Source: Blastocatellia bacterium (GTDB taxonomy: Bacteria; Acidobacteriota; Blastocatellia; HR10; J050). Taken from it: 50,099 nucleotides of DNA. The translations under genes were made by a program, and so were the position numbers. Position 1 is the first letter of the stretch. Each line of letters starts with the position of its first letter. This document shows positions 2,627 through 21,813 of the stretch, one piece after another. A model generated the notes under the pieces. The model had not been told where the DNA came from and made no database searches. It was given only the letters and a program-made list of their open reading frames with translations. The DNA lies in the NCBI GenBank assembly GCA_026985075.1, contig JALSQX010000040.1, forward strand, positions 1 through 50,099, in the 5' to 3' direction.

Positions 2627-2655
2627 TTATTTTTGTGCGAAATTACGTCTATAAT
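2627..2655 (+). promoter_or_regulatory. Probable promoter of the histidine kinase gene
   Basis: A perfect -10 hexamer TATAAT lies at 2650-2655, with a poor -35 (TTATTT, 2627-2632) at 17 bases. Transcription would begin near 2662, which rules out the ATG codons at or before 2657 and supports translation from 2687/2690. The weak -35 is compatible with activator dependence. Confidence 0.5.
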
Positions 2656-2686
2656 AATGAGGGCGTTGGTCGAAGGGTGGCGTCAG

Positions 2687-5600
2687 ATGATGAGCGAAAC
2701 AGCCTGGAGATGGCCGGTCATCATATGGATCACGGGACTTTCTCTGATTGTAGCTGCTGGACCGGAGAAATCCATCGTCTGGGCCCAGCAACTTCCCATT
2801 CGCTCCTATGATATCAGCGATGGGCTGGCCAACAGCACGGTGACGTCCATCTACCAGGACACGAAGGGCTATCTCTGGTTTGGCACCTGGGGTGGACTGA
2901 GCCGATTCGATGGCTACCGTTTCACCAACTATGATACGCGAGACGGCCTGGGGCATATCATCATCAACGATGTAGTCGAAGATCGGCGCGGGCGTCTCTG
3001 GGTCGCCACCAATGGCGGAGGCGTGGCTCGCTTGATCGATGAGCCCGAGGAAGCGCACTCACCGAGAGATGGTGAACCGGTGCCGATGGGGCGGCGAAAG
3101 TTCGTGAGCTATCGGATCGGCGATTCAGGCGAATCGAATCAGGTGAATGCGCTGCTCTTTGATGCCGACAACACCCTCTGGTGCCTCACCGACGCCGGTT
3201 TGTTTCGGGCGGTGGACTCAACCGGCGACCCGACGTTCGACCTCATCCTGAGTCGTACGTCGGCGGAGTTTATGCTCCAGGCGGCTTTGGCTGACTGTCG
3301 CGGGCGTCTCTGGTTTGGGATTGCTAACGGGTTGATGCAGGTGAACCAGGATCACATGATCACGTACGGCCGGGAGAATCAGGTGGGCCGCCACCCCATC
3401 GTGAGCATCATTGAGGATCGTCAGGGACGGGTGCTGGTGGCCAATCGCCGCGGCGCGTTCGAGTTCCGAGACTCGGCCGGTGGGAGCAGCCGTGGACGCT
3501 GGAAGCGGGTTCCAATTGTACTCAGATCGGGCCAAGAGATTCATTCGATGATCGCCGATTCCACCGGAGCGCTCTGGATTGGTACCAACAGGGGCCTGAT
3601 CAAATACAAGGGGGGTCGCCAGACACTGTATACGGCGGCCAATGGGTTGCCGGGTGACTCCATCGGAACTCTTCATGAAGATCGAGAGGGCAACCTGTGG
3701 ATGGCTGCTGCCGGGGTATGCAAACTCTCCAATGAGACGATCGTCAGCTTCACCAAGGCAGAGGGACTCCCCGATCAAAGTGTCTGGAAGATCATCCAGG
3801 ATCGCGAAGGACGTATTTATGCGAGCACCCACTCTGGCGGCGTGGTGGAGATTGTAGACGGAAAAGCCATCCCCGTCCCGGGCTCGCAGGCCCCGCCATT
3901 TGACACCATCCGCGGTCGAATTGTGCAAGACCGTCAAGGCAACTGGTGGATCGGAACGGACAAGAAGGGCCTGTTTCACTTCCCGGGACCGAAACTGCAG
4001 TTTCGACACGGCAAAAGGTTCACTGCGGCCGAGGGCCTCTCCGGGACGTATGTCGTCTGGATATATGAAGATCTGGCCGGAAAGGTGTGGGTCAGCATGA
4101 GCCAGTTTGAGCCACATCTTTCCAACAACATTTATCGGTTTGATCCCGGTCGAGACGCACACCTGGTCTTCAAGCACATCCCCATCCAAGCCTGTTCGCC
4201 CGCCCAGGTCATCCGGATGCTGAACGACCGCTCTGGGGCGCTGTGGCTCGGTTGGCATTTTTGTCTCGCCAGATGGGCAAAGGGAACGCTCCTCGTCTTC
4301 GAGCCAACCGATGGGCTGCCCGAGGCGCGCCCGCGCGCCTTCCTTCAAGACAGTCGGCGTTGGCTCTGGATTGGCTTGCGCTACCGGGGCGTCTCGGTGA
4401 CGAAGGACCCGACTGCCGCCCGTCCGACGTTTGTGAACTACTCGATCGAGGAGGGTCTCTCGAGCAACACCATATGGTCCATCGCCGAGGGCGAGTTCGG
4501 TCGGATCTATCTGGGCACCGAGAGAGGACTCGACCGGCTCGATCCGATGACCGAGCAGATTCGCCATATCACAACCCGAGACGGCCTGGCTGGCGATCTG
4601 ATTCGTCACTGTATGAAAGATCGGAGCGGCAACATTTGGGTTGCCACGGCGACGGGGATATCGAAACTCAGGCCGCGCGCCGAGCAACGACCCGCCGCCC
4701 CGCCGCCCGTCTATTTGAGTCGGATTCAGATCGCCGGAGAAGACCTGTCGCTGCCGGAGATGGGCACGCAGCAGCCGCCGTCGTTAACACTGTCCGCCGG
4801 TCAAAATAATCTCCGCATCGAGTACGTGGGATTGAGCTTTCAGGGCGAAAAGACGCTCGCCTACCAATACAAGCTCGAAGGCGCGGACGAAGACTGGAGC
4901 CCACCGACCGACGAGCGCTCGGTCCATTACGCGCAACTCGCGCCGGGCTCATATCGGTTTCTGGTGCGCGCGATCAATCGAGAGGGGACGGCCAGTTCTC
5001 AACCGGCCGTGGTCTCGTTCCGCATCTTGCCACCGATCTGGCAGCGGTGGTGGTTTCTGGCTCTCGGCATGGCCATGCTCACCGGTCTCGCCTACGCGCT
5101 GCATCGGCTGCGTCTTCGGCAGGTCATCGCCATGGAGCGCATTCGACAACAGATTGCCACCGATCTCCATGACGACATCGGATCGGGGCTGTCACAGGTG
5201 GCGATTTTGAGCGAAGTGGCCAAACACGAGGCGTCTTCTGCGGGAGCCACTCTGCTCGATGAAGTGGCGAATCTGGCGCGCGCGATGCGCGAGTCCATGA
5301 GTGATATTGTATGGGCCGTGGATCCGCGGAAGGATCGGCTGGCAGATCTCATCCAGCGAATGAGACAGGTCACGTTCAACTTGCTTGAAGCCGAGGAGCG
5401 GTGCGTGGCGTTTCAGGCCCCTGAGGAACGAGAGATCGAGCGCATCGGCCTCGGGCCGGATCGGCGGCGGCATCTGTTGCTCATCTTCAAAGAAGCGATC
5501 ACCAACATCGCACGGCACGCGCAAGCCGAGCATGTGCGCGTGGAGATGGAGTTGGAAGCGCGCACGTTGCGCCTCACGATCCGAGACGATGGTCGCGGGT

Positions 5601-5737
5601 TCGATCCACACGCTCACTATGAAGGTCATGGACTCGCGAGTCTCCGACGGCGCGCCGCGGCGCTGCATGCGGCGTTGAGGATTGACTCGGCCCCTGGCAA
5701 CGGCACGACGATTCAGGTCGTGGTCCCGCTGAAATAA
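2687..5737 (+). CDS. Membrane sensor histidine kinase with Reg_prop propeller sensor
   Basis: About 1016 residues. An N-terminal hydrophobic segment (about 8-25) serves as signal or anchor. It is followed by about eleven propeller repeats of the type G-x-L-W-[IFV]-G-T-x-x-G-L (two-component regulator propeller), a Y_Y_Y-type Ig-like domain, a single transmembrane helix near residue 790 (WWFLALGMAMLTGLAYAL), a HisKA_3 dimerisation domain with phospho-acceptor His about 828 in TDLHDDIGSGLSQ, and an HATPase domain (N-box KEAITNIARHA, G-box DDGRGFD). It should autophosphorylate in response to an extracytoplasmic ligand, unknown here. Start chosen from GAAGGG 9 bases before ATG 2687. The natural partner is the NarL-type regulator at 6412, now separated by a decayed module. 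Confidence 0.9.
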   Translation: MMSETAWRWPVIIWITGLSLIVAAGPEKSIVWAQQLPIRSYDISDGLANSTVTSIYQDTKGYLWFGTWGGLSRFDGYRFTNYDTRDGLGHIIINDVVEDRRGRLWVATNGGGVARLIDEPEEAHSPRDGEPVPMGRRKFVSYRIGDSGESNQVNALLFDADNTLWCLTDAGLFRAVDSTGDPTFDLILSRTSAEFMLQAALADCRGRLWFGIANGLMQVNQDHMITYGRENQVGRHPIVSIIEDRQGRVLVANRRGAFEFRDSAGGSSRGRWKRVPIVLRSGQEIHSMIADSTGALWIGTNRGLIKYKGGRQTLYTAANGLPGDSIGTLHEDREGNLWMAAAGVCKLSNETIVSFTKAEGLPDQSVWKIIQDREGRIYASTHSGGVVEIVDGKAIPVPGSQAPPFDTIRGRIVQDRQGNWWIGTDKKGLFHFPGPKLQFRHGKRFTAAEGLSGTYVVWIYEDLAGKVWVSMSQFEPHLSNNIYRFDPGRDAHLVFKHIPIQACSPAQVIRMLNDRSGALWLGWHFCLARWAKGTLLVFEPTDGLPEARPRAFLQDSRRWLWIGLRYRGVSVTKDPTAARPTFVNYSIEEGLSSNTIWSIAEGEFGRIYLGTERGLDRLDPMTEQIRHITTRDGLAGDLIRHCMKDRSGNIWVATATGISKLRPRAEQRPAAPPPVYLSRIQIAGEDLSLPEMGTQQPPSLTLSAGQNNLRIEYVGLSFQGEKTLAYQYKLEGADEDWSPPTDERSVHYAQLAPGSYRFLVRAINREGTASSQPAVVSFRILPPIWQRWWFLALGMAMLTGLAYALHRLRLRQVIAMERIRQQIATDLHDDIGSGLSQVAILSEVAKHEASSAGATLLDEVANLARAMRESMSDIVWAVDPRKDRLADLIQRMRQVTFNLLEAEERCVAFQAPEEREIERIGLGPDRRRHLLLIFKEAITNIARHAQAEHVRVEMELEARTLRLTIRDDGRGFDPHAHYEGHGLASLRRRAAALHAALRIDSAPGNGTTIQVVVPLK

Positions 5738-6352: not shown

Positions 6353-6390
6353 TTCATGTAGTTGTTTTTTGAGACGGAAAGAGATACATT
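6353..6390 (+). promoter_or_regulatory. Candidate promoter and regulator site of the response regulator gene
   Basis: The 13-mer TTCATGTAGTTGT (6353-6365) recurs exactly at 7930-7942. Its TTGTTT (6362-6367) could act as a weak -35 with a -10 TACATT (6385-6390) at 17 bases. The same geometry is seen upstream of the gene at 8011, suggesting a shared activator site overlapping -35. Inference only. Confidence 0.35.
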
Positions 6391-6411
6391 ACTATTCTCA
6401 CGGACAAGCAG

Positions 6412-7056
6412 ATGTTGAAAGAAATCACTGTCGCGATCATCGAGGATCAGAAGCAGACGCGCGAAGGGCTCGCAATGTTGATTGATGGCACGGCGGGCTA
6501 TCGCACTGTCGGGAAATTCGCCTCGATGGAGGAGGCGCTGGCGAAACTGGAATGGTATCCACCCGATGTGGTGCTGGTAGATATTGGGTTGCCAGGGATG
6601 TCTGGCATCGAAGGGGTGCGGCAAATCAAGGCGCGGTGGCCGAGCTTACACATTCTCATGCTGACGGTCTATGCCGATGACGACCATATCTTCGAGGCCA
6701 TCTGCGCCGGCGCGTGTGGCTATCTCCTGAAAGACACGCCACCACCGAAGCTGCTCGAAGCCATCGGCGAGGCGTGCGGGGGCGGCGCCCCGATGTCGCC
6801 CGATGTCGCGCGCAAGGTGGTGGCGATGTTCCAAGAAATCGTCACGCCCAGGAAGGAAGAGCATCGCCTGACGCCCCGCGAACTCGAGGTGTTAAAATTG
6901 CTGGCCGATGGCCATAGCTACAAAACGGCGGCCAATGCCCTCTCGTTGAGTCTGGATACGATTCGTTTCCATATTCGCAACATTTACGAGAAGCTCTATG
7001 TGCACTCCAAATCCGAAGCCGTCCTCAAAGCCCTGCGCAGCGGCCTTCTTCGGTAG
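6412..7056 (+). CDS. NarL/FixJ-family response regulator
   Basis: This 214-residue regulator has an N-terminal receiver domain (residues about 5-122) with the acidic pair Glu11/Asp12, phospho-acceptor Asp57 in LVDIGLPG, the conserved Thr in MLTVYAD and Lys in YLLKDTP. The C-terminal LuxR-type helix-turn-helix (about 148-210) includes LTPRELEVLKLLADG and the recognition segment SLDTIRFHIRNIYEKL. It is the expected partner for the HisKA_3 kinase ending at 5737, although about 675 bases with a decayed toxin-antitoxin module now lie between them. It probably controls adjacent genes; a 13-base sequence is shared between its own upstream region and that of the exported-protein block at 8011. Confidence 0.92.
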   Translation: MLKEITVAIIEDQKQTREGLAMLIDGTAGYRTVGKFASMEEALAKLEWYPPDVVLVDIGLPGMSGIEGVRQIKARWPSLHILMLTVYADDDHIFEAICAGACGYLLKDTPPPKLLEAIGEACGGGAPMSPDVARKVVAMFQEIVTPRKEEHRLTPRELEVLKLLADGHSYKTAANALSLSLDTIRFHIRNIYEKLYVHSKSEAVLKALRSGLLR

Positions 7057-7929: not shown

Positions 7930-7966
7930 TTCATGTAGTTGTGCGCTCGATCTGGCGGAGTATCAT
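7930..7966 (+). promoter_or_regulatory. Candidate promoter and regulator site of the exported-protein block
   Basis: An exact copy of the 13-mer TTCATGTAGTTGT (7930-7942) overlaps a poor -35 TTGTGC (7939-7944), followed after 16 bases by a good -10 TATCAT (7961-7966). A good -10 with a poor -35 covered by a shared motif suggests an activated promoter, perhaps by the regulator encoded at 6412. The rest of 7671-7929 holds nothing recognisable. Confidence 0.38.
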
Positions 7967-8010
7967 ATCAGTATATGAAACTCACAAGACTCAAGGCGAG
8001 GGGAGATCTC

Positions 8011-10629
8011 ATGAAGATGATCCAAGCCCAAGTAAAAGTTTCGTCTTGTCTGAAATTCGTGACAAGGCTCCTATTATCCATATTGTTCTTGATCAGCATA
8101 TCCACTGGCGACATTGCAGCCGAGGGGTCGCCAATGCTAAGTGTTAGCCCGACCAGCGGCCCACCGGGCAGTACTGTTCGCCTCACTGGGAGCGGCTACA
8201 CTGGCGGGTTAGAGGGTGCTATCTTATGGGATAGTCTGGACGTGGATATACTCGATATACCTAGCAGTGGCATGTTTACTGTTGATTTCTCCATTCCACC
8301 GGGCGCCTCCCTTGGTATGCATACCATCACCGTCTGTACCGGGAACCCTTGCTTCACCGGTGAGTTTGAAGAGCGAGCCTCTGCCACCTTTGAAGTCACC
8401 CCAGGCGAACCCTCGGCAGGAACATTCGATGTGCAAATTCAGGCAATAGAGGTGACGCAAGGTATCCGTGGGGATATCCCGAGTCGCACCCCCCCGCGCG
8501 GCAGTATCATTCTCCCCCTCGACAGGGCCGTTCATGTCGCCAACCGGCGCACTATTGTACGTGCCTATCCTTGGGTGCAAGCTGCTCCAGGAACAACAGT
8601 ACCTCCTCTCACTGCACAGTTGTTTGCTTTTCGGGATGGAAGATTATTACCGGGGTCACCTATCTCCCCCGTTAATCCCCGCCTTGAGGGTGTTTCACCA
8701 GACGACACGCTGGAAGAGATGCGGAGCGATGCAACAAAATCCTGGAATTTCGTGTTGCCGCCCGGGTGGGTATCGCTCTCCGAGGATGAAGAATCTTTTT
8801 CTATACTCTTTGTGGCGGAAGCCAATCCACTGAACCTCGAGCCAGAGTGTGAGGGATGTGATGATAACAACCTCGTCTTGCTCGGACAAGACTTTATGCA
8901 CGTAAGACGCGAACCCTACTTCCCTCTTCCAACGAGTAGACGACCTACTCGATCTCCATTGGTTATAGTGCCCTATTTCATCACGCAAATATGCACTGAC
9001 GCCACAGGCGGGCGAAGGATGATTCCTGACCCCACATTGCCCCCATCAAGCCCCCAGTCTACAATGATCCAATTCTTGATTTCATTAAGTGAAATGAGAA
9101 AGCTCCTTCCTATTGCCGAGGGCTCGGCAGGCATGGTCGTTATGCCGCCGATTCCTGAAACCTGGGAGACGGGTCGTTGTGACCGTAGTCCTACCTCAGA
9201 GGACAGCAGGGATTTTGATGTCACTATGATTCGGCGTCATTTTCCAGGCGGCGCAAGGGAGGGAGACCCACTCGGCGTATACCGCATGTTCATCTTTAAT
9301 GACAATAACACTTGGATAAATGGTGGTTACGGCTTTTGCGGCACTTCTCATTTAGTCGCGGATACAGGAAAATTTACCATATTACATGAACTCACTCATT
9401 GCATCGGTCTGGACCACGCAGGGACTGGTCATTGTGAGCGCTTGAACAGCAGTTGCATTGGCGGATATCCGGACGATCACGGCCAGATAGAACCCAATGC
9501 ATTCGGATTTGACACGTTTCTCATGAGCGCTATCTCGCCTCAGCTTCAGCGCCGTCCTGAAGGCTTAGAGGGTGATCCATGCCAGCCACTGGAGATGGAA
9601 AGACCACATGATTACATGTCCGGCGGGCCGGGTCTTAATAAGTGGACATCTCTTTACACCTGGGAAACCATTGCTTCTCTGCTTGGCCAACCTGACGTGG
9701 ATGCCGCTGGTAGCAGCATGCGTACAGCCTTCACATCAGCAATACCCAAGGGTGAGCATCTCCTCATTTCGGGGAGCATAGATTCCAATGAGATCATAAG
9801 GTTGCAACCATTATTCTTTTCGGCTCCAGCCTTAAGCGAATCGCCCCCGAACGATGATCGTCTTGGTGAGTACTGGATCGAGTTCCGAGATATCCAAGGG
9901 GTGCTGTTAGATACTCACAAACTTACGCTAATACAAGCTTCAGATTTAAAGCAACCGATTGGACTTTTTTCTGAATCGGTGCTTCCACCCACCGACTGGC
10001 GGACGTTAGCAATTGTGAAAAATCAGACGGCGTTGGCTACCTTTTCGCGTTCAGCCAGTGCACCGGAAGTGAGCTTAATTACGCCAACTGATGGGACTCA
10101 GTGGCCGGCAACTGGAGAGGTCACTGTTTCTTGGGAAGCTCGCGATGCCGATAAGGAGGCCCTCACTTTCAGAGTGGAGGGCAGTCCTGACGGGCAAGCT
10201 TGGGTAACCTTGGCCAGCGACATCACAGGAACGAGCGTAACCGTCGACTTGGCGGCCATTCCCAGCGGCGGCTGGCAAAAAGGGCAAATACGAGTTCAAG
10301 CCAGCGATGGGCTAAATGTGACTGTATCCAAACCCCGTTTGGTGAATCTCGCCCCCAAGCCTCCTCAGCCTTACATCTTGAATCCGCTCATGGGCGATCG
10401 TTTTGTAAAAGGTCAGAAAGTAACGCTGTTGGGGGTTGCCGGAGACTGGCAAGATGGGCAAATTGAGTCAGGAAACCTGGAGTGGTTGCTGAATGGCAAG
10501 GTAATAGGCAAGGGAGAGAGAATGGAACTCTCTCTGCCGCCTGGCACGTACAGCTTGGTTTTGCGAGCAACGAACAGCATGGGCCTCACGAGGAAGATGG
10601 AAGTCCAACTTGTCGTGAATCAAAAATGA
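8011..10629 (+). CDS. Secreted zinc metallopeptidase with IPT/TIG-like and C-terminal Ig-like domains
   Basis: About 872 residues from ATG 8011, preceded by the purine-rich GAGGGGAGA. A signal peptide spans about residues 10-38. An IPT/TIG-like domain follows (VSPTSGPPGSTVRLTGSGY). In the middle is a metzincin-like zinc site HELTHCIGLDH with His459, Glu460, His463 and His469, and downstream a Met-turn-like HDYMSGG followed by a WTSLYTW segment. The C-terminal 200 residues look like two Ig-like or fibronectin-like repeats (VSLITPTDGTQWPATGEVTV onwards). It is likely an exported or surface protease. Ninety-seven bases separate it from the lgt-like gene, so it may head the block. Substrate unknown. 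Confidence 0.82.
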   Translation: MKMIQAQVKVSSCLKFVTRLLLSILFLISISTGDIAAEGSPMLSVSPTSGPPGSTVRLTGSGYTGGLEGAILWDSLDVDILDIPSSGMFTVDFSIPPGASLGMHTITVCTGNPCFTGEFEERASATFEVTPGEPSAGTFDVQIQAIEVTQGIRGDIPSRTPPRGSIILPLDRAVHVANRRTIVRAYPWVQAAPGTTVPPLTAQLFAFRDGRLLPGSPISPVNPRLEGVSPDDTLEEMRSDATKSWNFVLPPGWVSLSEDEESFSILFVAEANPLNLEPECEGCDDNNLVLLGQDFMHVRREPYFPLPTSRRPTRSPLVIVPYFITQICTDATGGRRMIPDPTLPPSSPQSTMIQFLISLSEMRKLLPIAEGSAGMVVMPPIPETWETGRCDRSPTSEDSRDFDVTMIRRHFPGGAREGDPLGVYRMFIFNDNNTWINGGYGFCGTSHLVADTGKFTILHELTHCIGLDHAGTGHCERLNSSCIGGYPDDHGQIEPNAFGFDTFLMSAISPQLQRRPEGLEGDPCQPLEMERPHDYMSGGPGLNKWTSLYTWETIASLLGQPDVDAAGSSMRTAFTSAIPKGEHLLISGSIDSNEIIRLQPLFFSAPALSESPPNDDRLGEYWIEFRDIQGVLLDTHKLTLIQASDLKQPIGLFSESVLPPTDWRTLAIVKNQTALATFSRSASAPEVSLITPTDGTQWPATGEVTVSWEARDADKEALTFRVEGSPDGQAWVTLASDITGTSVTVDLAAIPSGGWQKGQIRVQASDGLNVTVSKPRLVNLAPKPPQPYILNPLMGDRFVKGQKVTLLGVAGDWQDGQIESGNLEWLLNGKVIGKGERMELSLPPGTYSLVLRATNSMGLTRKMEVQLVVNQK

Positions 10630-10726: not shown

Positions 10727-11521
10727 ATGATGTTGCCACATGTCATCGAGTACCATGGAGTAGTCATCCCCACATACGGAGTGCTGCGGCTGCTGGCTTT
10801 TGCGGTGGCACTCTGGCTTGGCGTCTACCTGACTGGGCGCGAGGGCATCAGGAGAGGCATCCTCACGCGTTTCGGTCTTCTCACGTTGCTGGTGGGAGTC
10901 ACTTCACCAAAGCTCTATCTGCTTCTCCGGGGAGAGAGTCTTTCACATTTCCTTCGCGCCGGCGGTGGAATCTACTGTGGACTCATCCCCGGGATTCTAT
11001 TTGCCCTGTGGTACTTGAAGCGGCACGGCTTGCCGGTGATGAAGGTGCTCGATGGCTTCAGCCCATCGGTAGCGTTGGGTCTGGCCATCGCTCGGATCGG
11101 CTGTTTTGCCGCTGGTTGCTGCTATGGTCAGCCAACCGATGGGCCCGTCGGCGCGGTATATGAGAACTCATCTTTGACGACCGGCGTTCCCTTGGACGTC
11201 CAGATTCATCCCACCCAGCTTTATGAAGCCGCACTGAGTCTCATCGTGGTTGCTGTGCTGCTCGGCTGGAGAACGCGTCAGAGATTCGACAGTCAGACCT
11301 TCAGCGTGATGCTGATCCTATGCGGGGCGTCGAGATTTCTAGTGGAGATCGTTCGAGGCGACCCGGGGCGAGGCTTCATCGTTGAGGGGTGGCTCTCCGT
11401 GCCGCAGCTTATCAGCCTGTTGCTGATCCTGGCGGCGTCAGGATGGATGCTTCGTCTGGCGCATTCGGGTCATCGCTCTCGAAAAAAGACGAGAAACTCA
11501 AATCGGAGGTGGGTGTCATGA
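10727..11521 (+). CDS. Divergent prolipoprotein diacylglyceryl transferase (Lgt-like)
   Basis: About 264 residues with six or seven hydrophobic segments, matching the Lgt fold, which moves diacylglycerol from phosphatidylglycerol to the lipobox Cys of prolipoproteins at the inner membrane. Recognisable are the VIPTYGVL N-terminus, the Arg in ARIGCFAAGCCYG (place of the E. coli R143 motif), HPTQLYEA, and a late Arg in RFLVEIVRGDPGRG. The motif holding E. coli His103 seems replaced by GGGIYCGL, and GCCYG replaces the usual Asn/Glu-containing segment, so this belongs to a variant class. Start: ATG 10727 or 10730. Its stop overlaps the start of the next gene (ATGA), and two lipobox proteins follow, suggesting a dedicated enzyme. 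Confidence 0.78.
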   Translation: MMLPHVIEYHGVVIPTYGVLRLLAFAVALWLGVYLTGREGIRRGILTRFGLLTLLVGVTSPKLYLLLRGESLSHFLRAGGGIYCGLIPGILFALWYLKRHGLPVMKVLDGFSPSVALGLAIARIGCFAAGCCYGQPTDGPVGAVYENSSLTTGVPLDVQIHPTQLYEAALSLIVVAVLLGWRTRQRFDSQTFSVMLILCGASRFLVEIVRGDPGRGFIVEGWLSVPQLISLLLILAASGWMLRLAHSGHRSRKKTRNSNRRWVS

Positions 11522-13263
11522 AGACCAACCTCAAGTCGCAGAGTATAAAGCTGATCCCAGTGGGAAGCCGAAGCCCAATCTGGGGAGGCTGGAGGTTCAA
11601 GGCGTTCCTGCTCATACTGGCGCTCGTGCTGCTCTCTCTGCCGCCACCCTCGGCGAGCATCATACATGCTATCAGCTCGCCGGGCAGCCTGGACCCGAGT
11701 GGGTGGCTACCAGATCCTGAGGTGACGCCGACGGCCGCTGCTGCTGTGGCTGTTGGGTCGTTCGACTTTCCCCAATCGTTCATTGTTCGAGGTACAGGCA
11801 CATTCTCAGTTGCGGGCGTGGATATTCGCGGCCGTTTTGAGACAGCTTACTTTGTAGGCACTGATGGCCGAGTGACGATCAGGCAACTCCGAGCCGAGGT
11901 GGATCCGGCTGGGGTTTTGATCTTCAGGGTACCCATCCTTCGTGACAGAAGAGTCCCGCTTTTCTGCGCCAGCGCCGTCAATGTGGGTCCCATTAACGGC
12001 GTCGTCGACCCCACCGGCAAACTGACGATTCCCAGCGGTGCGGCGACGGTCCTGGGGAGCACGTTCAGCGAGCCGGGGCCATTCCCTCGCGGCTGTCCGG
12101 GTCGCGGTGCCGTGAGCTTTTTCTCAGCCACAAACAATGACTCACTCACGGGGCGCCACGATCCGGCCAGAGATGAGTTCCGGCTCGAAGGCGAGTTTCC
12201 CTTCGGCGACTTCAATATCACGATTCGGATGATGGGGAACTATGTGAATCGCCCTCCGCGCGCCATCATCGGTGTTGCGGGACCGGGATTATCACCGACC
12301 CTCGTGCAAGGAGGCTGTCCGCCGCTGAGCGGTATTAACCCGCCCACGACTGAAGCGAATGACCCGGAGGGCCTGAGGGTGATACTCGCCTCGGCTTCCT
12401 TTGATCCCGACGGCGCATGGGGTCGAGCCGATATCTTCCTTGAGCAGTGGTCTCACGCCCGCGCGGGTGGGCCCTTCGAGCTCTTGGGTCAAGGTCCTCG
12501 GATTGGCCCGGTCCTGTTTGAGTTTGGGACGCAGCACCGCCTCCTCTTATCTGTGACAGACCGTGCTGGCGCCATTTCACGAGATAGCTGTGGATTCATC
12601 GTGGTGGACACCACCCCGCCGCTCGTGTTGCCGCCATCTCGTATTACGCTCCTCTGCACTGAGCGAGGTGGAGCCAGCGCGCGCACCTCTCGGGCGCTGC
12701 GCGAGTTCCTCATCGGCGCCCGCACGAGCGACAATTCCGATCCCGCTCCCATGCCCTTACCACCGCAAGTAGATGGCATGGATGTCACTGAAAAAACATT
12801 GTTCCCGCTGGATCGCGGCCAACATCCCCAGCCGTGTTTCACGCCCGTGGTCTTTCGGTTCCAGGATCGGCACGGCAACATCGGTGCGGCTATCTCGGGC
12901 GTCCGGGTGGTGGATCGCCGGCCGCCGGACTTGAGTGTGGATCTCTTCCCGAATCTGCTTCAGCCCACGTTCGAGTTTGTCACGATTCGGGCCGACATCC
13001 TCACGGCGGACGTGTGCGGAGGGGTGAGTGTGATTCTGGACGCCATCGTGGCCGACCCACCCCCACCGCCGCAGAGCGATCTGGTGCTCATCAGGGGCGC
13101 CGAGTTTGGCACCGATGACCGCGAGTTCCAGTTACGTGCGGCGCCAGCGATTGGTCCGAACCAACAACCGGTGGATCGGATATATAAGGTCACATACCTT
13201 TCGCTGGACGACCTGGGCAATGAAACCCGCGCCACGGCTCGGGTCATCGTCAAAGCCATGTGA
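11518..13263 (+). CDS. Large secreted protein A1 with C-terminal HYR/Ig-like region
   Basis: 581 residues from ATG 11518, with GGAGGTG 6-12 bases upstream and an ATGA overlap with the lgt-like gene. A long basic N-region precedes a hydrophobic segment (about 27-45) that looks like a signal peptide. The middle holds a beta-rich region with the VRGTGTFSV and YVNRPPRAIIGV blocks. The C-terminal 220 residues begin with VVDTTPPLVLPP and end DDLGNETRATARVIV, resembling HYR/Ig-like adhesion modules. Residues 366-554 are encoded by a 566-bp segment nearly identical to one in A2. No known function; probably a surface or matrix component. Confidence 0.75.
   Translation: MKTNLKSQSIKLIPVGSRSPIWGGWRFKAFLLILALVLLSLPPPSASIIHAISSPGSLDPSGWLPDPEVTPTAAAAVAVGSFDFPQSFIVRGTGTFSVAGVDIRGRFETAYFVGTDGRVTIRQLRAEVDPAGVLIFRVPILRDRRVPLFCASAVNVGPINGVVDPTGKLTIPSGAATVLGSTFSEPGPFPRGCPGRGAVSFFSATNNDSLTGRHDPARDEFRLEGEFPFGDFNITIRMMGNYVNRPPRAIIGVAGPGLSPTLVQGGCPPLSGINPPTTEANDPEGLRVILASASFDPDGAWGRADIFLEQWSHARAGGPFELLGQGPRIGPVLFEFGTQHRLLLSVTDRAGAISRDSCGFIVVDTTPPLVLPPSRITLLCTERGGASARTSRALREFLIGARTSDNSDPAPMPLPPQVDGMDVTEKTLFPLDRGQHPQPCFTPVVFRFQDRHGNIGAAISGVRVVDRRPPDLSVDLFPNLLQPTFEFVTIRADILTADVCGGVSVILDAIVADPPPPPQSDLVLIRGAEFGTDDREFQLRAAPAIGPNQQPVDRIYKVTYLSLDDLGNETRATARVIVKAM
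12613..13178 (+). repeat. 566-bp near-identical duplication, copy 1
   Basis: This stretch matches 15671-16236 with one visible mismatch (T at 13137, C at 16195), while DNA on both sides diverges strongly. The boundaries lie inside the two A genes and keep frame. Such a sharp island of identity between older paralogues indicates recent gene conversion or a recent internal replacement. Confidence 0.9.
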
Positions 13264-13278
13264 AAGAGGAGTTACATC

Positions 13279-14568
13279 ATGAACCGACAAGGGAGATTGA
13301 GGAGAAGGTCATCACGCTCCTGGTTGCAGTCGCTTGCTCAACTCTGCTGGATGTGGGGGGTCGTGGCCCTGCTGGTCGCGACTGAACTTTACACGACCGG
13401 GTGCGGACTCATACTTGATTTTGCTCCAAAAGAGGAAGCGGTGCGGGGATACAGATATCGTTGCGAAATGACGGTGAGGAATTCGGAAGTAGGACCGGAT
13501 GGAAGACTTTTTGAAAAGCATATTACGAGCGATGATCTGGAGTTTCGGGATCGACCTTTCTTCACTTGTATTAGTGATGACGCCGCGCTCTGCCCTCCTG
13601 GATGTGCCAGGACCGAGGAAGACGTGATCAGGAACTGGAGAAATTGGGTCGCTCGGCGTATTGAGGATTTCATCACTGGCCGTGCCACCCTTGGGGAATT
13701 CACATCGGACTTTGAATTGTACCGAGAACCTTGGTGCGAGGTCGAGGGGACGGCCAGATGTGAGCTACTGGAGCCATTGCCGCCCACGCCCGAGCCTCTT
13801 TGTCCGTCTCTTGTAGACCCCTTGCCCGACGAAACGTTGGAATCGTGTCCTGCCTCCCCCATCCCCTGCCTTGAACTTGATCCCCTCGATATCGATTTTG
13901 GCAGCGTGCCGGTTGGGCGAGCGAGTGGTCCAGTTCCGGTCACGGTCAGAAACTGTGACACAAGCCAGGTGCGTATTCGAGTTGCTAAGGACACCGTCCG
14001 TGGTAATCCCGATGATTTCGTCATCACGGCGAATGGATGCGCTCCGAGAGACACGAGAGAGAGGACGGAGGATCGGCCATTAGATCCCATGGAAGAGTGC
14101 ACTCTCGACGTGCAATTCAACCCAATGAGACCGCGCACACGTATTGGGTTCATCCGCATTGAGAGTGAGGGCCATTTCACTCGGGGGACATTCGGAGTGG
14201 TGCTGAGAGGTGAGGGAGTGCCTGGGGAACTTGGTGTTGACCCGAATCCTGCATGCTTTCGCCGCGCCAGTCGAGTCGGTGGGTGCTGGGTCCATGATGT
14301 CATCATTACTAATAGCGGTCCCGGAGACGTGAGAGTCAATGTCCCTATGATCACGCCTCCTTATGAGATTGAGAGCGTTGACCCAGCAGGTGCTTTCCCT
14401 CGTACGCTGAATCCGGTCGGCACACCGCCCCCCAGCAGCACCGGACTCAGAGTCCGTCTGAGGCTGTGCAGTGATACGAGGGAAGATGGGGAGCTCTTGA
14501 TCAACAGTGATGCAGCAGAATCTCCAGTGAGCGTGCGCCTCGTGAGTCCATCTCATCCGTGTCCGTGA
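13279..14568 (+). CDS. Putative lipoprotein B1 with choice-of-anchor/ASH-like domain
   Basis: 429 residues. A basic N-terminus and hydrophobic stretch (about 20-37) lead to Thr-Thr-Gly-Cys at about residue 42, an acceptable though not ideal lipobox. A Cys-rich segment with DDAALCPPGCARTEED and NWRNWVARRIEDF follows, corresponding to the dockerin-like region of B2 but without its calcium loop. The C-terminal half has two ASPM/SPD-2/Hydin-like (choice-of-anchor D) beta-sandwich repeats, recognised by DIDFGSVPVGR and VRNCD. It starts 15 bases after A1 with a GAGGAG-type site. Paralogous to B2 (16342). Likely an outer-surface lipoprotein; function unknown. Confidence 0.72.
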   Translation: MNRQGRLRRRSSRSWLQSLAQLCWMWGVVALLVATELYTTGCGLILDFAPKEEAVRGYRYRCEMTVRNSEVGPDGRLFEKHITSDDLEFRDRPFFTCISDDAALCPPGCARTEEDVIRNWRNWVARRIEDFITGRATLGEFTSDFELYREPWCEVEGTARCELLEPLPPTPEPLCPSLVDPLPDETLESCPASPIPCLELDPLDIDFGSVPVGRASGPVPVTVRNCDTSQVRIRVAKDTVRGNPDDFVITANGCAPRDTRERTEDRPLDPMEECTLDVQFNPMRPRTRIGFIRIESEGHFTRGTFGVVLRGEGVPGELGVDPNPACFRRASRVGGCWVHDVIITNSGPGDVRVNVPMITPPYEIESVDPAGAFPRTLNPVGTPPPSSTGLRVRLRLCSDTREDGELLINSDAAESPVSVRLVSPSHPCP

Positions 14569-14611
14569 CGAAAACAAAAGGCGCGACATTAGAAATGGAA
14601 GGTGGAACGAT

Positions 14612-16327
14612 ATGAAGAGCAACTTCAAATCATGGTGCCCGGGACTGATCGGAGCGGGAGCCCGAGGCCTCGTTTGGCGAGGCTGGAGCGTTCGGGCGTT
14701 TCTGCTCGTGCTGGCGCTTGTTCTGCTCTCTTGGCCACTACCAACGGTGATGACGGTTGTGGCTGAGCCGCCCGCAGAGCTGGCGTCGGTCGCCGCCGGG
14801 TTTTTCAACGTTCCCCAAGCTTTCATCGTCCGAGGGCGGGGGATCATTTCGGTTGATGGCATCCAGGACGACTTCCCGGGCGGTTTTGAGATGAGCTATC
14901 TGGTGTATCCCGATGGCCGTGTGACGATCTCCCGACTGGTGGCCACGATTGGCGATGGGAACTACCTGGTTCGAGACCGTCGCGTTCTGCGGGACATCCG
15001 CATCGAGCTTCACTGTAGCCGCGGCGCCAATCGCAACCCGATCACGGCCATGTTAGACCCTACCGGCAAACTGGTGATTCCACCGGGAGCGGCCATGATT
15101 TCGGGGGTCTCTTACCCAGAGAGAGCAGAGGACGGCTCTTGTCCCGGTCGCGGCGACGTGCTCACGTTCGAGGCCACCAATAATGCTCCGCTCCAAGGGC
15201 GACACGACCCGATGAGAGACGAGTTCACGTTGGAAGGCCGATTCCGGGCCATGGCGGCGGAGCGGGAGACCGACGTCACCATCACCATGACGGGGCATTA
15301 TGTCAATCGCCCGCCGGTCGCCATCATCGGCGTCAGGGGACGTGGATTGCCCGCTATCCTCGGCCAGGGGGGCTGCCCACCTACAAGGGGAGTGAATCCA
15401 CCGACGACAGAGGCCAACGACCCGCGGGGGCTGTTAGTGACCCTCATTTCCGCCTCGGATGATCCTGACGGTTCTTTCCGCCGATCCGATATACGGAGCG
15501 AGCAGTGGTATCACGCCCCCGGTCCGGTGCCACTGGAGTTCTTGGGCTTTGGGCGCGAGATCGGTCCCGTCCTGTTCGAGTTTGGGCCGGAGCACCGCCT
15601 GGGCCTCCTGGTGACGGATCTGGCTGGCGCCATCTCAAGCGATGGGTGCTTCTTCAAGGTCGTTGATACGACCCCGCCGCTCGTGTTGCCGCCATCTCGT
15701 ATTACGCTCCTCTGCACTGAGCGAGGTGGAGCCAGCGCGCGCACCTCTCGGGCGCTGCGCGAGTTCCTCATCGGCGCCCGCACGAGCGACAATTCCGATC
15801 CCGCTCCCATGCCCTTACCACCGCAAGTAGATGGCATGGATGTCACTGAAAAAACATTGTTCCCGCTGGATCGCGGCCAACATCCCCAGCCGTGTTTCAC
15901 GCCCGTGGTCTTTCGGTTCCAGGATCGGCACGGCAACATCGGTGCGGCTATCTCGGGCGTCCGGGTGGTGGATCGCCGGCCGCCGGACTTGAGTGTGGAT
16001 CTCTTCCCGAATCTGCTTCAGCCCACGTTCGAGTTTGTCACGATTCGGGCCGACATCCTCACGGCGGACGTGTGCGGAGGGGTGAGTGTGATTCTGGACG
16101 CCATCGTGGCCGACCCACCCCCACCGCCGCAGAGCGATCTGGTGCTCATCAGGGGCGCCGAGTTTGGCACCGATGACCGCGAGTTCCAGTTACGCGCGGC
16201 GCCAGCGATTGGTCCGAACCAACAACCGGTGGATCGCATTTACACGGTCACTTATGTCGCCGTTGACGAATTCGGGAACAAGACGCAGGCCTCAGCCGAG
16301 GTCATCGTCAAAGCGATGGGACAATAA
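14612..16327 (+). CDS. Large secreted protein A2, paralogue of A1
   Basis: 571 residues. The architecture is the same as A1: basic N-region with GWSVRAFLLVLALVLLSWP as signal-peptide core, a middle beta-rich region (VRGRGIISV, YVNRPPVAIIGV, GGCPPTRGVNPPTTEANDP) and the HYR/Ig-like C-terminal region beginning VVDTTPPLVLPP. Residues 354-541 come from the 566-bp segment shared with A1; the last 30 residues diverge again (VDEFGNKTQASAEVIV). It begins 43 bases after B1, and B2 follows after 14 bases, so the cassette A-B is duplicated in tandem. Role unknown; secretion is inferred from the signal peptide. Confidence 0.75.
   Translation: MKSNFKSWCPGLIGAGARGLVWRGWSVRAFLLVLALVLLSWPLPTVMTVVAEPPAELASVAAGFFNVPQAFIVRGRGIISVDGIQDDFPGGFEMSYLVYPDGRVTISRLVATIGDGNYLVRDRRVLRDIRIELHCSRGANRNPITAMLDPTGKLVIPPGAAMISGVSYPERAEDGSCPGRGDVLTFEATNNAPLQGRHDPMRDEFTLEGRFRAMAAERETDVTITMTGHYVNRPPVAIIGVRGRGLPAILGQGGCPPTRGVNPPTTEANDPRGLLVTLISASDDPDGSFRRSDIRSEQWYHAPGPVPLEFLGFGREIGPVLFEFGPEHRLGLLVTDLAGAISSDGCFFKVVDTTPPLVLPPSRITLLCTERGGASARTSRALREFLIGARTSDNSDPAPMPLPPQVDGMDVTEKTLFPLDRGQHPQPCFTPVVFRFQDRHGNIGAAISGVRVVDRRPPDLSVDLFPNLLQPTFEFVTIRADILTADVCGGVSVILDAIVADPPPPPQSDLVLIRGAEFGTDDREFQLRAAPAIGPNQQPVDRIYTVTYVAVDEFGNKTQASAEVIVKAMGQ
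15671..16236 (+). repeat. 566-bp near-identical duplication, copy 2
   Basis: Partner of 12613-13178 at an offset of 3058 bases, lying wholly within gene A2. One visible difference only. Outside the segment A1 and A2 share motifs but not DNA identity. Confidence 0.9.
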
Positions 16328-16341
16328 GGGGACGTTAAACC

Positions 16342-17706
16342 ATGAACCGACAGGTGAAATCAATCCGATGGGATGATTTCAGATCGAGGCTGCGGCCACT
16401 TGGTCAGCTCTGCTCGATGTTAGGTCTGGTGGCTCTGCTCGCCGTCATCGAAATTTACAGCACAGGGTGTCGTCTTGCTCGATCGGGACTGGGGGCCCCG
16501 CGGGTTTTTTATGAATGCACGTTGACGTTGGTGAATGATGAAACCGGAGAGGAGATACTCATTTCAAATAACGATGCCTTCCATGAGGATTTCCTTCACC
16601 CTGATTTCGTCGGATGTAGAGGCGCTGGTCCTGAGCCCATTTCCGACGACTGCCCTGTGGTGTGCGATGTCAACGGAGATGGTGTGTGGGATATCAGCGA
16701 CGTCCAGGAACAATGGCGACGTTTCGTCCTTCCCCGAGTCGCTATGATTGCTGGCGACTCGAGCCATCCGCTCTACCCGCTCTTCAGTCGGGGCAGGTGG
16801 TGCGTGAGAGAGATCCGGTGTCGTGTAACGGACGCGGGCACAAATGAGGCATGTCCACTGCCTGAGCCGCCACTCCCCCCGGGAACAGATCCATGTGCTG
16901 GTGAGCCTCCGCCTCCACCTCCCCCTCCCCCAGGAATAGACCCTTGCCTTGATCTCGGTGGCGATGTCATGCGAATTGACGATCATACCTACGTAATCGA
17001 TTTCGGTCGAGTGCCGGTCGGAGAAACTGTGATACGGGCTGTAGAAGTCATAAATTGTGGAAATGTCTCAGTGACGTCCACCATCGATGAGAGACTCGAT
17101 CCGACGAGTCCGGATCCGGGGGATTTCGCTGTCACAGGGAATGAATGTGGCCCGAGAACCGCCGCTGAGGTCAGCATGGGTCGAACTTTCCTGCCCATGG
17201 AGGTCGATCCGGTTGAGTCCTCTTGCACGTTCAGGGTGGAGTTCACCCCCCAGGAAGCTGGCCTCCGCGAGGCGCAGAAGACGATTGTGGCCGACGTCGA
17301 GGTGTCCCCTCTGGTCCTTGAGAGGGAGTTCCAATTGCGGGGCGAAGGAATACCCGGAAGGCTTCGCGTCGACCCCGCCCCGGTGTGCTTCAACCGGGCT
17401 ACTCCAGACCCGAGTCGGTGCCTCGTTCATGACGTGACCATTCTCAACGAGGGACCAGGATGGGTGACGATAGACCGGCCGCCCGAGATCGAGCCTCTCG
17501 GATCGCCTTATGAGCTCGTGAGCGTTGATCCGCCGGGCGCTTTTCCACGCCCTCTGAGTCCTGGCAGCCGCATCAGCGTGCGCCTCCGACTCTGCGATCT
17601 CCGCATCACAACGGATGCCGCGCTCGTGATCGAGAGTAACGCTGAAGAGACCGTTGTCCGCGTCGATCTTTTAAACCCACGCTCTATCGACGCCCGGTGT
17701 CGGTAA
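16342..17706 (+). CDS. Putative lipoprotein B2 with dockerin-like calcium loop and ASH-like domain
   Basis: 454 residues, paralogous to B1. The N-terminus is basic then hydrophobic, ending in Ser-Thr-Gly-Cys near residue 42, a plausible lipobox. Residues 109-122 read DVNGDGVWDISDVQ, the spacing of an EF-hand/dockerin-type calcium loop, followed by a helix (EQWRRFVLPRV). A proline run near residue 190 links to two choice-of-anchor D (ASPM/SPD-2/Hydin-like) repeats starting at VIDFGRVPVGE. Spacing to A2 is 14 bases and to the LVIVD gene 14 bases, so all are probably in one transcript. A single dockerin loop could mean calcium-stabilised docking, but no cohesin is visible here. Confidence 0.72.
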   Translation: MNRQVKSIRWDDFRSRLRPLGQLCSMLGLVALLAVIEIYSTGCRLARSGLGAPRVFYECTLTLVNDETGEEILISNNDAFHEDFLHPDFVGCRGAGPEPISDDCPVVCDVNGDGVWDISDVQEQWRRFVLPRVAMIAGDSSHPLYPLFSRGRWCVREIRCRVTDAGTNEACPLPEPPLPPGTDPCAGEPPPPPPPPPGIDPCLDLGGDVMRIDDHTYVIDFGRVPVGETVIRAVEVINCGNVSVTSTIDERLDPTSPDPGDFAVTGNECGPRTAAEVSMGRTFLPMEVDPVESSCTFRVEFTPQEAGLREAQKTIVADVEVSPLVLEREFQLRGEGIPGRLRVDPAPVCFNRATPDPSRCLVHDVTILNEGPGWVTIDRPPEIEPLGSPYELVSVDPPGAFPRPLSPGSRISVRLRLCDLRITTDAALVIESNAEETVVRVDLLNPRSIDARCR

Positions 17707-17720
17707 GGAAGGAGGAGACG

Positions 17721-19562
17721 ATGAAAAACTTACTCTCACATGCCAGCTTGCTGATACTTTTATTGGTGACATTCGCCGGTCACTTCCGTTGGCTGGCCGC
17801 GGCCAGTGGCCAGGGAGCCGCACCCGAACTTCTCGGTCGCGCCTTGCTCGGACAGGCCAATGATGTGGTCGTGAGCGGCATGATTGCCCACCTGGCGACC
17901 AGTAGCGGGCTTTCCATCGCGGAGGTGAGCGATCCGACGAACCCGGTCGAACGCGGGCGGCTTCTTCTGCCCGGCGAAGCCTTGACCGTCGCTGTGAGCC
18001 AAGATCACGTCTACCTGGCCAGCGGGCGCGAAGGCTTTTTCATTGTGAATGTCTCTGACCCAGCACGGCCACAGGTTGTGGCGCACATGAACAGCCAGTA
18101 TGCTGCCGATGTGGCTGTCGTGGGGACGCTCGGGTACTTTGCCGATGCTGAGAGCCTCGTGATCTTCGATCTCACAGAGCCGGATTTTCCCATTGCGCTG
18201 AACGCGCTCAATCTTTCGGGATTCGCTCGCGCGATAGTCATCAATGATGACCTCGGGTATGTGGCCGTGGGCGAGGCGGGCGTCGATCTGATTGACGTGA
18301 GCGACCCGATGGAGCCTCAGCTTCTGGCCACAGTTGACACTCCTGGCGAGGCGCTGGGCGTCGCTGTGAGCGACCAACTTGCTTTTATCGCTGATGGGAC
18401 CAGCCTCATTGTCCTTGATGTTTCAGCGCCCACTCAGCCGAGGCAGTTACAGCAGTTTATTATCGACGGCCTCGTCAGCGATGTGAGTGTTGAGGGGGAG
18501 ACGCTCTACGCCACCGGAACCTTTGAGGCCGGCGTATCTCAACTGTCAATCATCAGCACCTTGATCCCATCCCGGCTGCGCATTACGGGGACAGTCAACT
18601 TCGCCGGTGAGGCGGTGAGGCTGACGGTGAGCGAGAATCGAGCCTATATTGCCGCGCGGTGCGAGGGCCTGATCATCCTGGATGTATTTCGACGCGATAA
18701 CCCACGGTTGATGGGGACGTATGCCGAGCCATCGTGTTTCAACGATGTGGCCGCCTTTGAAACGACTGTCTACCTGACGCGCCGCATGAAAGACGCAGCC
18801 ATCGTGGATGCCTCTGATCCGGCGAATCCGCGCCCCGTCGGCTCGATCAGCGGTCCGGTTCAGCGTGTCGTCCGGTCAGGGAAGATTCTTGCCGGGGCCG
18901 ATGGGGAAGGGGTGACTTTCTATTCTCTGGAAAATCCGGCTTCCCCTTCGCGGTTAAGCCAATTGAAGTTGCCAGAGACGACTATTCACGCCCTCGCAGC
19001 GTCCGAGACGCTGGTCGGGATCAGCACAGACGAGGCTATTATTTTAGTGGATATATCCAATCCTCGCCGTCCCCGAAGGCGCAGTGAAATCCCCGGACGC
19101 GCCTTCCAGCTTGCTTTTGATGGGGACCGGCTGTTTGCGGCGCGGGGAACCGAGGGGCTGAGTGTGTTTGATGTTTCGAATCCGAATCGACCGCGCATTG
19201 TGGCGGACGTCGCCGCCAAGGATCCGTTGTTCGGGACGACGTCGGTTATGGCTGGCGGAGGCCGGGTTTTCCTCGGCGAGCCTTTCACTGGCGTCCGAAT
19301 CTTTTCGCTCTCACCGATGACGCATCTGGATGAGATCGGTCGCTATGAGGCTCCGAGCCCGCTCGAGCTGATTGTGAAGGACATGACGCTCTACATCGCC
19401 GATCCGTTTCGCGGCCTGGAGATTGTGAATGTGGCCGATCCGGCTCGTCCCACTCTCATCGGTTCGTTCAATCCGGGCGGCATGGTCACAAGCCTCGCGC
19501 TCGAAGGGGATCGCGTCTACCTGTTGGATTCTCGATCAGGGGTGTGGATTCTTCAGCCCTGA
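17721..19562 (+). CDS. Secreted LVIVD-repeat beta-propeller protein
   Basis: 613 residues from ATG 17721, with AAGGAAGGAGG 8 or more bases upstream; the frame opens slightly earlier but lacks such a site. A signal peptide covers about residues 1-30 (LLSHASLLILLLVTFAGHF...AAAS). The rest consists of about thirteen 42-residue LVIVD repeats, each with a pattern like GLxIxDVSDPxxPxxxGxxxxPGxAxxVxV and YVAxGExGVDLIDVSDP. These fold as beta-propellers on cell surfaces. It is the last gene before a likely terminator and probably part of the lgt-A-B operon. Binding partner unknown. Confidence 0.83.
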   Translation: MKNLLSHASLLILLLVTFAGHFRWLAAASGQGAAPELLGRALLGQANDVVVSGMIAHLATSSGLSIAEVSDPTNPVERGRLLLPGEALTVAVSQDHVYLASGREGFFIVNVSDPARPQVVAHMNSQYAADVAVVGTLGYFADAESLVIFDLTEPDFPIALNALNLSGFARAIVINDDLGYVAVGEAGVDLIDVSDPMEPQLLATVDTPGEALGVAVSDQLAFIADGTSLIVLDVSAPTQPRQLQQFIIDGLVSDVSVEGETLYATGTFEAGVSQLSIISTLIPSRLRITGTVNFAGEAVRLTVSENRAYIAARCEGLIILDVFRRDNPRLMGTYAEPSCFNDVAAFETTVYLTRRMKDAAIVDASDPANPRPVGSISGPVQRVVRSGKILAGADGEGVTFYSLENPASPSRLSQLKLPETTIHALAASETLVGISTDEAIILVDISNPRRPRRRSEIPGRAFQLAFDGDRLFAARGTEGLSVFDVSNPNRPRIVADVAAKDPLFGTTSVMAGGGRVFLGEPFTGVRIFSLSPMTHLDEIGRYEAPSPLELIVKDMTLYIADPFRGLEIVNVADPARPTLIGSFNPGGMVTSLALEGDRVYLLDSRSGVWILQP

Positions 19563-19956: not shown

Positions 19957-21813
19957 ATGTCATCACCAATTCGATTCACTCAAGCTCTCTTTGTCGGTGC
20001 AGTAATGTTGCTCGTGACCATACCTATCCCCGCGGCGAGCGTTTCGCAAGGGGAGATCGTCTGGGAACAAACCAACGGACCGATTGGTGGGAATGTCCGG
20101 GCACTGGCGGCAAGCACCGCCGGATATCTGTTTGCCGGAACATCTGGCGGCGTCTTCCGCTCCACCGATGGCGGCGACGCCTGGACACAGATCAGCGGTT
20201 TCAGGTCTGTCACCGCTATCCTCGTCAATGTCAGGGGAGTCGTCTTCGTTGGAACATACGGTGACGGCGTGTTCCGCTCCCGTGATAACGGCGATGCCTG
20301 GACACAGATCAACAATGGCTTGATGAATCTGAACGTCCGGGCGCTGGCGGTGAATGCCGCCGGGGACCTGTTTGCCGGAACCGACGGTGGCGGCGTCTTC
20401 CGCTCCACCGATGGCGGCGACGCCTGGACCAATACTGGCTTGGCGACTCTGAACGTCCGGGCGCTGGCGGTGAATGCCGCCGGGGACCTGTTTGCCGGGA
20501 CCGATGGCGGTGGCGTCTTCCGCTCCACCGACAATGGCAACTCCTGGATGGCTATCAATACTGGCCTGACCAGTCTCAATGTCCGTGAGTTGATGGTGAC
20601 GGCCAGAGGAACTTTGTTTGTGGGGACGCGTACGACTGGGGTGACCCCGCTGTTCCGCTCCACCGATAACGGTAATACGTGGGTGATGACTCCCCTGACC
20701 AATACTTTTATTCTCTCATTGGCCTCGAATACTGCCGGTCACGCGTTTGTCGGAACGTCTAGCGGCGTGTTCCGATCCACCGATGATGGAGACAGTTTTC
20801 AGCCCGCGAGCAACGGCTTGACGAATCCAGGTGTGCGATCTCTCGTGGTGAACATGGCCGGGGATGTGTTTGCCGGAACGAATGGCAGCGGCGTCTTCCG
20901 CTCCCGCAACAACGGCGATGCCTGGACAGCGACAAACGACGGCCTGACCAGTTCTGAGGTTTTAGCTCTCTTGGAGCATCCGGCGGGAGAGCTACTGGCC
21001 GGAACAACAGGTGGAGTGTTCCGTTCCCGCAATCGCGGCGACACCTGGACTGAACTCAATATTGGCTTGACGAATGTTCGAATCGTCGTTCTGGCGGTGA
21101 ATGCCGCCGGGGACCTGTTTACCGGAACCGACGGTGGCGGCGTCTTCCGCTCCACCGATAATGGCAATACCTGGACAGCGGTCAATAGTGGTTTACCGAC
21201 TTTCAATCGTCAGATCCGAGGTCTCGTGGTGAATGCTGCTGGGCACCTGTTTGTGGGGATGTTATTCTCGGGTGTGTATCGCTCCACCGATCACGGCAAC
21301 GCCTGGACGGCCACCGGATTGAGGGATCGTTCCGTCATTTCTCTAACGATAAATCGCTCCGGCCATCTGTTTGCCGGGACGAGTCGCGGTGAAGTGTTCC
21401 GCTCCACTAATGATGGCGACGCCTGGACACAGATCAACACCAGCTTGCCACCCACCAGCGGTATTACCGGGCTATTTGTGAATTCGAGAGGTGATCTGTT
21501 TGCCGGAACGTTTGACGGCGATTTGTTCCGCTCCACCAATAACGGCGACGCCTGGACCCAAATCACGACCGGCTTGCCCCGCTTGGGCGTCTGGGCTCTG
21601 GAGGAGAACGCAGCGGGAGAACTGTTTGTCGGATTGGATGGCGGAACAGATGGCGGCGTGTTCCGCTCCACCGATAACGGCGACTCCTGGACTCCGGTTA
21701 ACACTGGTTTAACGAATCCCCGAATCAATGCCCTGCTCGATGTCTCAGGCGATCTCTTCGCCGGGACCATTGGCAGCGGCGTCTTCCGCAGTGCCGAGTC
21801 AATCACGCCGTAG
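19957..21813 (+). CDS. Secreted BNR/VPS10-like repeat propeller protein
   Basis: 618 residues from ATG 19957, chosen because GGAGGAGG (19944-19951) precedes it; the frame is open earlier but runs through the leader repeats. A signal peptide spans about residues 1-32 (ALFVGAVMLLVTIPIPAAS). The mature part is fourteen repeats of about 42 residues with the motif GVFRSTDxGDxWTxxNxGL and VRALAVNAAGDLFAGT, typical of BNR/sortilin or ycf48-like propellers. Two adjacent repeats (from about 20332 and 20452) are near-identical in DNA, showing recent internal duplication. It probably has its own transcript because a likely terminator and a 390-base leader precede it. Ligand unknown. Confidence 0.83.
   Translation: MSSPIRFTQALFVGAVMLLVTIPIPAASVSQGEIVWEQTNGPIGGNVRALAASTAGYLFAGTSGGVFRSTDGGDAWTQISGFRSVTAILVNVRGVVFVGTYGDGVFRSRDNGDAWTQINNGLMNLNVRALAVNAAGDLFAGTDGGGVFRSTDGGDAWTNTGLATLNVRALAVNAAGDLFAGTDGGGVFRSTDNGNSWMAINTGLTSLNVRELMVTARGTLFVGTRTTGVTPLFRSTDNGNTWVMTPLTNTFILSLASNTAGHAFVGTSSGVFRSTDDGDSFQPASNGLTNPGVRSLVVNMAGDVFAGTNGSGVFRSRNNGDAWTATNDGLTSSEVLALLEHPAGELLAGTTGGVFRSRNRGDTWTELNIGLTNVRIVVLAVNAAGDLFTGTDGGGVFRSTDNGNTWTAVNSGLPTFNRQIRGLVVNAAGHLFVGMLFSGVYRSTDHGNAWTATGLRDRSVISLTINRSGHLFAGTSRGEVFRSTNDGDAWTQINTSLPPTSGITGLFVNSRGDLFAGTFDGDLFRSTNNGDAWTQITTGLPRLGVWALEENAAGELFVGLDGGTDGGVFRSTDNGDSWTPVNTGLTNPRINALLDVSGDLFAGTIGSGVFRSAESITP

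Follow-up and report, generated by a model that had tools for sequence, protein, structure and literature searches.

A second, divergent gene of the prolipoprotein diacylglyceryl transferase family within a secreted-protein operon of an Acidobacteriota genome

The window, a stretch of 50,099 nucleotides that constitutes contig 40 of a 5.2 Mb Acidobacteriota genome, carries a second, divergent gene of the prolipoprotein diacylglyceryl transferase (Lgt) family, here called Lgt2, in an operon otherwise encoding secreted proteins. We put at about even chances that Lgt2 is an accessory, regulated Lgt, probably still a diacylglyceryl transferase, which serves the surface-protein operon whose expression it shares. 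Its product would then most likely still move diacylglycerol from phosphatidylglycerol to the signal-peptide cysteine; the operon would probably be switched on by the adjacent pair of a propeller-type histidine kinase and a NarL-type regulator; and lipidation capacity would be added during operon expression, with the proteins B1 and B2 as the likeliest local clients. The purpose of second lgt copies is rarely known, though such copies are common; here, a gene overlap and a promoter element with only three occurrences in the genome tie Lgt2 to a two-component system and to a surface-protein operon, and the locus thereby offers a concrete hypothesis on the conditions and the purpose for which an accessory Lgt is employed.

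Organization of the locus

Between positions 7939 and 19562 the plus-strand genes are tightly packed, with intergenic gaps of 14-97 bp plus one ATGA overlap, in the order Ig/M66-like protein, Lgt2, A1, B1, A2, B2 and LVIVD-repeat protein. The features of the region are:

2633..5737, plus strand: sensor histidine kinase with Reg_prop propeller, Y_Y_Y and HisKA_3/HATPase domains (Pfam)
6353..6365, plus strand: 13-bp element TTCATGTAGTTGT, 5' of the response-regulator gene, followed by N17 and TACATT
6412..7056, plus strand: NarL/LuxR-type response regulator with Response_reg and GerE domains (Pfam)
7930..7942, plus strand: 13-bp element TTCATGTAGTTGT at the operon head, followed by N16 and TATCAT
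7939..10629, plus strand: operon gene 1, secreted protein with a bacterial Ig (Big_7) domain and a weak M66-like metallopeptidase region (HELTH); the true start is probably 8011 rather than 7939
10727..11521, plus strand: Lgt2, second, divergent gene of the prolipoprotein diacylglyceryl transferase family (by PF01790, residues and predicted fold)
11518..13263, plus strand: A1, secreted orphan protein, its start overlapping the Lgt2 stop
13279..14568, plus strand: B1, weak choice-of-anchor-D match below the cut-off, N terminus ...ELYTTGC, possible atypical lipoprotein
14612..16327, plus strand: A2, paralogue of A1 with 71% protein identity, partly gene-converted
16342..17706, plus strand: B2, choice-of-anchor-D protein (49 bits, cut-off 45), ...EIYSTGC, possible atypical lipoprotein
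17697..19562, plus strand: LVIVD-repeat propeller protein, choice_anch_B-like below the cut-off; probably the last operon gene, with a likely start at 17721

A preliminary description of this DNA had pointed to an overlap of the Lgt-like gene with A1, and stop and start do share ATGA at 11518-11521; the two genes are very probably co-transcribed. The signal peptide of the LVIVD-repeat protein has no Cys after it, and the other operon products beside B1 and B2 likewise carry Cys-less signal peptides. In a same-genus and a same-family genome, homologous kinase-regulator pairs also have secreted or beta-propeller proteins downstream, with differing cargo between. The succession of propeller histidine kinase and NarL-type regulator, variable secreted proteins and BNR-propeller protein (2633-7056 with 19957-21813 in the window; also L219 and L220) is a layout recurring in this bacterial family.

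Family, fold and active-site residues of Lgt2

In a profile search, Lgt2 matches PF01790 with 140.2 bits (cut-off 24.9) over profile positions 3-237 of 240, while it falls under the NCBIfam equivalog cut-offs (TIGR00544, 72.5 vs 118.9 bits; NF000778, 126.6 vs 334 bits). The AlphaFold (AF2) model, with a mean pLDDT of 84.7, has the seven-helix Lgt fold, and its sole significant PDB match is E. coli Lgt (5azb; E 1.4e-07, TM 0.72). Y26, R143, G154, E202, R239, E243 and R246 are retained, and the Arg of ARIG and the HPTQLYEA motif, described earlier as kept, are both present in the ORF 10727-11521.

The search for a canonical lgt elsewhere in the genome, proposed in the same description, led to contig 103, where a housekeeping lgt lies straight after a gene that we take from its translation to be lspA and before one that we likewise take to be ruvB. 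It is 94% identical to the lgt of Acidobacteria bacterium isolate J050, and its next relatives include Blastocatellia. Thus Lgt2 is a true second copy, and the possibility that it is the only lgt of the genome is ruled out. The housekeeping protein reads RLGCFSAGCCWG and GGVYYGG; that is, it has no His103, and Cys occupies positions 146 and 151. Among 56 Acidobacteriota Lgts, gathered by profile or protein searches that were not motif-directed (part with Lgt2 as query, part with the Pfam profile), Cys146 is found in 51, Cys151 in 50 and Tyr103 in 41, and the same replacements at 103, 146 and 151 have already been published (PMC13251419). What had been read as loss of the motif around His103 is therefore a Tyr at this site, the commonest residue in the phylum and also that of the housekeeping Lgt; the GCCYG segment reported to replace the usual Asn/Glu one is indeed there, but it is nothing special in a phylum with C146 and C151 at these frequencies. 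As the supposed signs of a variant enzyme occur across the 56 proteins, in the housekeeping copy and in the literature, they are phylum-normal and were dismissed as evidence of a special Lgt; in Acidobacteriota, neither GCC[YW]G nor the lack of His103 flags a specialised enzyme.

Private to Lgt2, when compared with the 56 relatives, are G142A, Y235C and G104C; G142 and Y235 are invariant in 56/56, and position 104 is Gly in 54/56. Y26, H103, G142, N146, G154 and Y235 count among the residues essential in E. coli Lgt (G142 and Y235 according to PMC4728403, as cited in PMC13251419), where a G104A variant still functions. Within this essential set, H103Y and N146C are phylum-normal and G142A and Y235C are Lgt2-private; since the latter two fall on residues reported essential in E. 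coli, the activity of Lgt2 may be weak or altered. Judged from its residues, Lgt2 is probably a divergent yet still active enzyme, with real doubt attached.

A promoter element common to the regulator gene, the operon and an Lgt2 remnant

The element TTCATGTAGTTGT has 3 exact matches in the genome, compared to about 0.15 expected (2 x 5.2 Mb / 4^13); two precede the response-regulator gene (6412) and the Lgt2 operon, and the third lies before a truncated copy of Lgt2 on contig 62:

L149:10478-10490 (C62): third TTCATGTAGTTGT site, 5' of the Lgt2 remnant
L149:10022-10366 (G000:C62:27075-27365): truncated Lgt2 copy with promoter

The element was spotted by eye as text common to the first two sites, so these two were not counted blind; genome searches supplied the third site and the absence of further ones. 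At all three sites it overlaps the -35 position, with a -10-like TACATT, TATCAT or TATAGT 16-17 nt on, a setting absent from the two one-mismatch sites elsewhere in the genome.

The remnant on contig 62 has about 66% protein identity with Lgt2 over 96 residues. Its DNA is 71% identical to the operon promoter region over 182 bp and 78% identical to the 5' part of Lgt2, the peptidase gene being absent between the promoter and the Lgt2 part; Lgt2 thus stays joined to its promoter even where the rest differs. That the element is common to the regulator gene and to a decayed Lgt2 copy argues that the place of Lgt2 within a regulated unit would not be accidental. The adjacent kinase/NarL-type regulator pair may control the operon. 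The remnant adjoins what appears, by eye, to be an AbrB/PIN-type toxin-antitoxin pair, together with a transposase fragment.

Origin and constraint

Two related genomes, one of the same genus and one of the same family, have a single lgt each and no Lgt2. A direct query with Lgt2 against named genomes returned no relative. The arginine genes downstream of the operon are syntenic with both the same-genus and the same-family genome; the operon stretch itself was found in neither. The branch of Lgt2 in the tree is long (1.67 changes per site), and its nearest relatives are other Acidobacteriota Lgts with about 40% identity. A recent duplication of the housekeeping gene within the genome was considered and set aside; against it stand the 37% identity of the two proteins and the free tree, in which Lgt2 falls outside the housekeeping clade of its family, although a tree with Lgt2 forced inside is not rejected (p-AU 0.082). 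A plasmid origin was likewise dismissed, as plasmid matches are all under 60% identity, those listed being at about 29-33%. Duplication and transfer would both fit the sequence comparisons.

Over 97 codons of Lgt2 and the remnant, dN/dS is 0.35 (NG86), 0.39 (ML) or 0.84 (YN00), and the aligned frame holds no stop. The two lower values and the lack of stops indicate that selection acted for much of the divergence of the pair; constraint on Lgt2 is thus likely but soft, the YN00 value weakening the estimate.

B1 and B2 as candidate lipoproteins

In B1 and B2, a hydrophobic segment precedes a Cys (...VVALLVATELYTTGC and ...LVALLAVIEIYSTGC). The lipobox-like TGC sites ascribed to them in the preliminary description do exist near the N terminus, as ELYTTGC and EIYSTGC, but the consensus is broken: with T or S at -3, TTGC of B1 and STGC of B2 lie outside [LVI][ASTVI][GAS]C (PMC4728403), and both proteins have Glu at -6 and Tyr at -4, leaving no uncharged stretch right before the lipobox. 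In a sample of about 400 kb of the genome, convincing lipoproteins have LSTGC, LTGC, LVLGC and similar sites, none of them charged anywhere from -7 to -2; a Thr or Ser at -3 would therefore seem tolerable here, while Glu at -6 looks odd for this genome. The pattern Y[ST]TGC had 7 matches genome-wide compared to 14 in a reversed control, that is, no signal.

Overall, B1 and B2 are 40% identical. The A/B repeats, however, contain an 80% identical DNA block which extends from mid-A over the initial 42 codons of B and breaks off at the TGC codon; as the signal regions lie within this duplicated block, the two TGC sites count as one observation, not two. Within the block, about 540 bp (12622-13160 of A1 and the matching part of A2) are practically identical and the rest about 65% so, a sign of recent gene conversion. 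That B1 and B2 are lipidated has, as a judgement and not a computed value, a chance near one half, and the housekeeping Lgt could lipidate them as well.

No relative of A turned up in the order (9 other genomes searched), and in the class (161 other genomes) B had one weak match only. With A and B almost without relatives, comparative evidence linking them to Lgt is lacking, and a conserved Lgt-A-B association was discarded. Among the neighbors of 20 lgt loci, lipobox proteins gave 3 regex matches, too few to be informative; the test is weak, the length-based ORF picker having missed lgt itself in 7/20.

Alternative explanations

It is unlikely that Lgt2 is a decaying or inactive passenger with an Lgt fold, duplicated or acquired, like its truncated twin on contig 62. 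The existence of that twin, the long branch, the three changes at invariant or nearly invariant positions, and the absence of the gene from same-genus and same-family genomes with one lgt each would all fit such a course; but decay has to be reconciled with a full-length intact frame in which the catalytic Arg and Glu residues are all kept, with a confidently predicted Lgt fold, with the lower dN/dS obtained by two of the three methods, and with a promoter element that has been retained. Somewhat less probable is that the gene order is accidental, Lgt2 being a general spare Lgt and B1 and B2 being secreted by way of signal peptidase I or anchored in the membrane. Spare copies are indeed frequent, with two or more Lgt-family matches in about 71/199 Acidobacteriota genomes by our count, and neither the Cys-less signal peptides of the other operon products nor the weak test of lgt neighborhoods, where lipoprotein enrichment was not clear, speaks for a special bond; the tight overlap of Lgt2 with A1 and the confinement of the promoter element to the regulator gene, the Lgt2 operon and the other Lgt2 copy count, in turn, against chance.

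A closer tie, with Lgt2 dedicated to B1 and B2 and their atypical lipobox E-[LI]-Y-[TS]-T-G-C handled poorly by the housekeeping Lgt, is improbable. It would account for the shared operon, for the E-x-Y-x-TGC segment common to both proteins and for private changes in the active-site region; however, the segment lies within the duplicated block, where its conservation is not independent, the lipobox itself is putative, and the pair was seen in no second genome (order searched for A, class for B). Hardly more than a speculation, and a shade fainter still, is that Lgt2 is matched to the B proteins and that both are under two-component control, the pocket altered by G142A, Y235C and G104C lipidating E-[LI]-Y-[TS]-T-G-C; if true, one group of surface proteins would be lipidated by an inducible route.

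Comparison with known systems

Second lgt copies are common; the regulated surface-protein setting of Lgt2 is unusual. Two copies occur in about 1,300 genomes, in part on plasmids that also bear lipoprotein genes (PMC13251419), and lgt accompanies lit2 in a copper-resistance element (PMC8689077). With the second Lgts of M. smegmatis (MSMEG_5408), S. coelicolor and B. cereus-group plasmids, Lgt2 shares being an extra divergent copy beside the main one, and with MSMEG_5408 also N146C (PMC13251419); by contrast, its contig is chromosome-like and bears arginine biosynthesis genes, and its operon encodes secreted propeller/Ig-type proteins and adjoins a two-component pair. The lgt2-lit2 copper-resistance element is similar in that an accessory lgt stands among functionally grouped genes (PMC8689077), but it belongs to a different phylum, and neither lit nor copper genes were seen at the Lgt2 locus. 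The housekeeping Lgt on contig 103 has in common with Lgt2 the PF01790 domain, RxGCFxAGCC[WY]G, Tyr at the His103 site, HPTQLYE and R143/R239/E243/R246; in contrast to Lgt2, it keeps G142, Y235 and G104 and is encoded beside lspA and ruvB. E. coli Lgt (5azb/5azc) resembles the Lgt2 model in the predicted seven-helix fold with its Arg143/Arg239 centre, whereas identity in the structural alignment is 23%, and N146C, E151C, H103Y, G142A and Y235C separate the two.

Other Lgt genes and repeats

In another Acidobacteriota genome (G022:C5; L178:16-2980), an lgt that has no lspA near it lies 9 bp before the gene of a 715-aa protein whose lipobox, VLLSSC, is clear. Several genomes of the phylum (L005, L007, L008, L010, L015) encode a proteobacterial-type Lgt with R[LI]GNFxNGELxG plus a further Lgt-family match; the N-type copies form a separate starred clade. 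Short interspersed repeats of 45-230 bp recur in the window (about 130-310, 1380-1610, 33740-34130 and 43986-44059), and those at about 130-310 and 1380-1610 are also present at dozens of sites in the same-genus genome.
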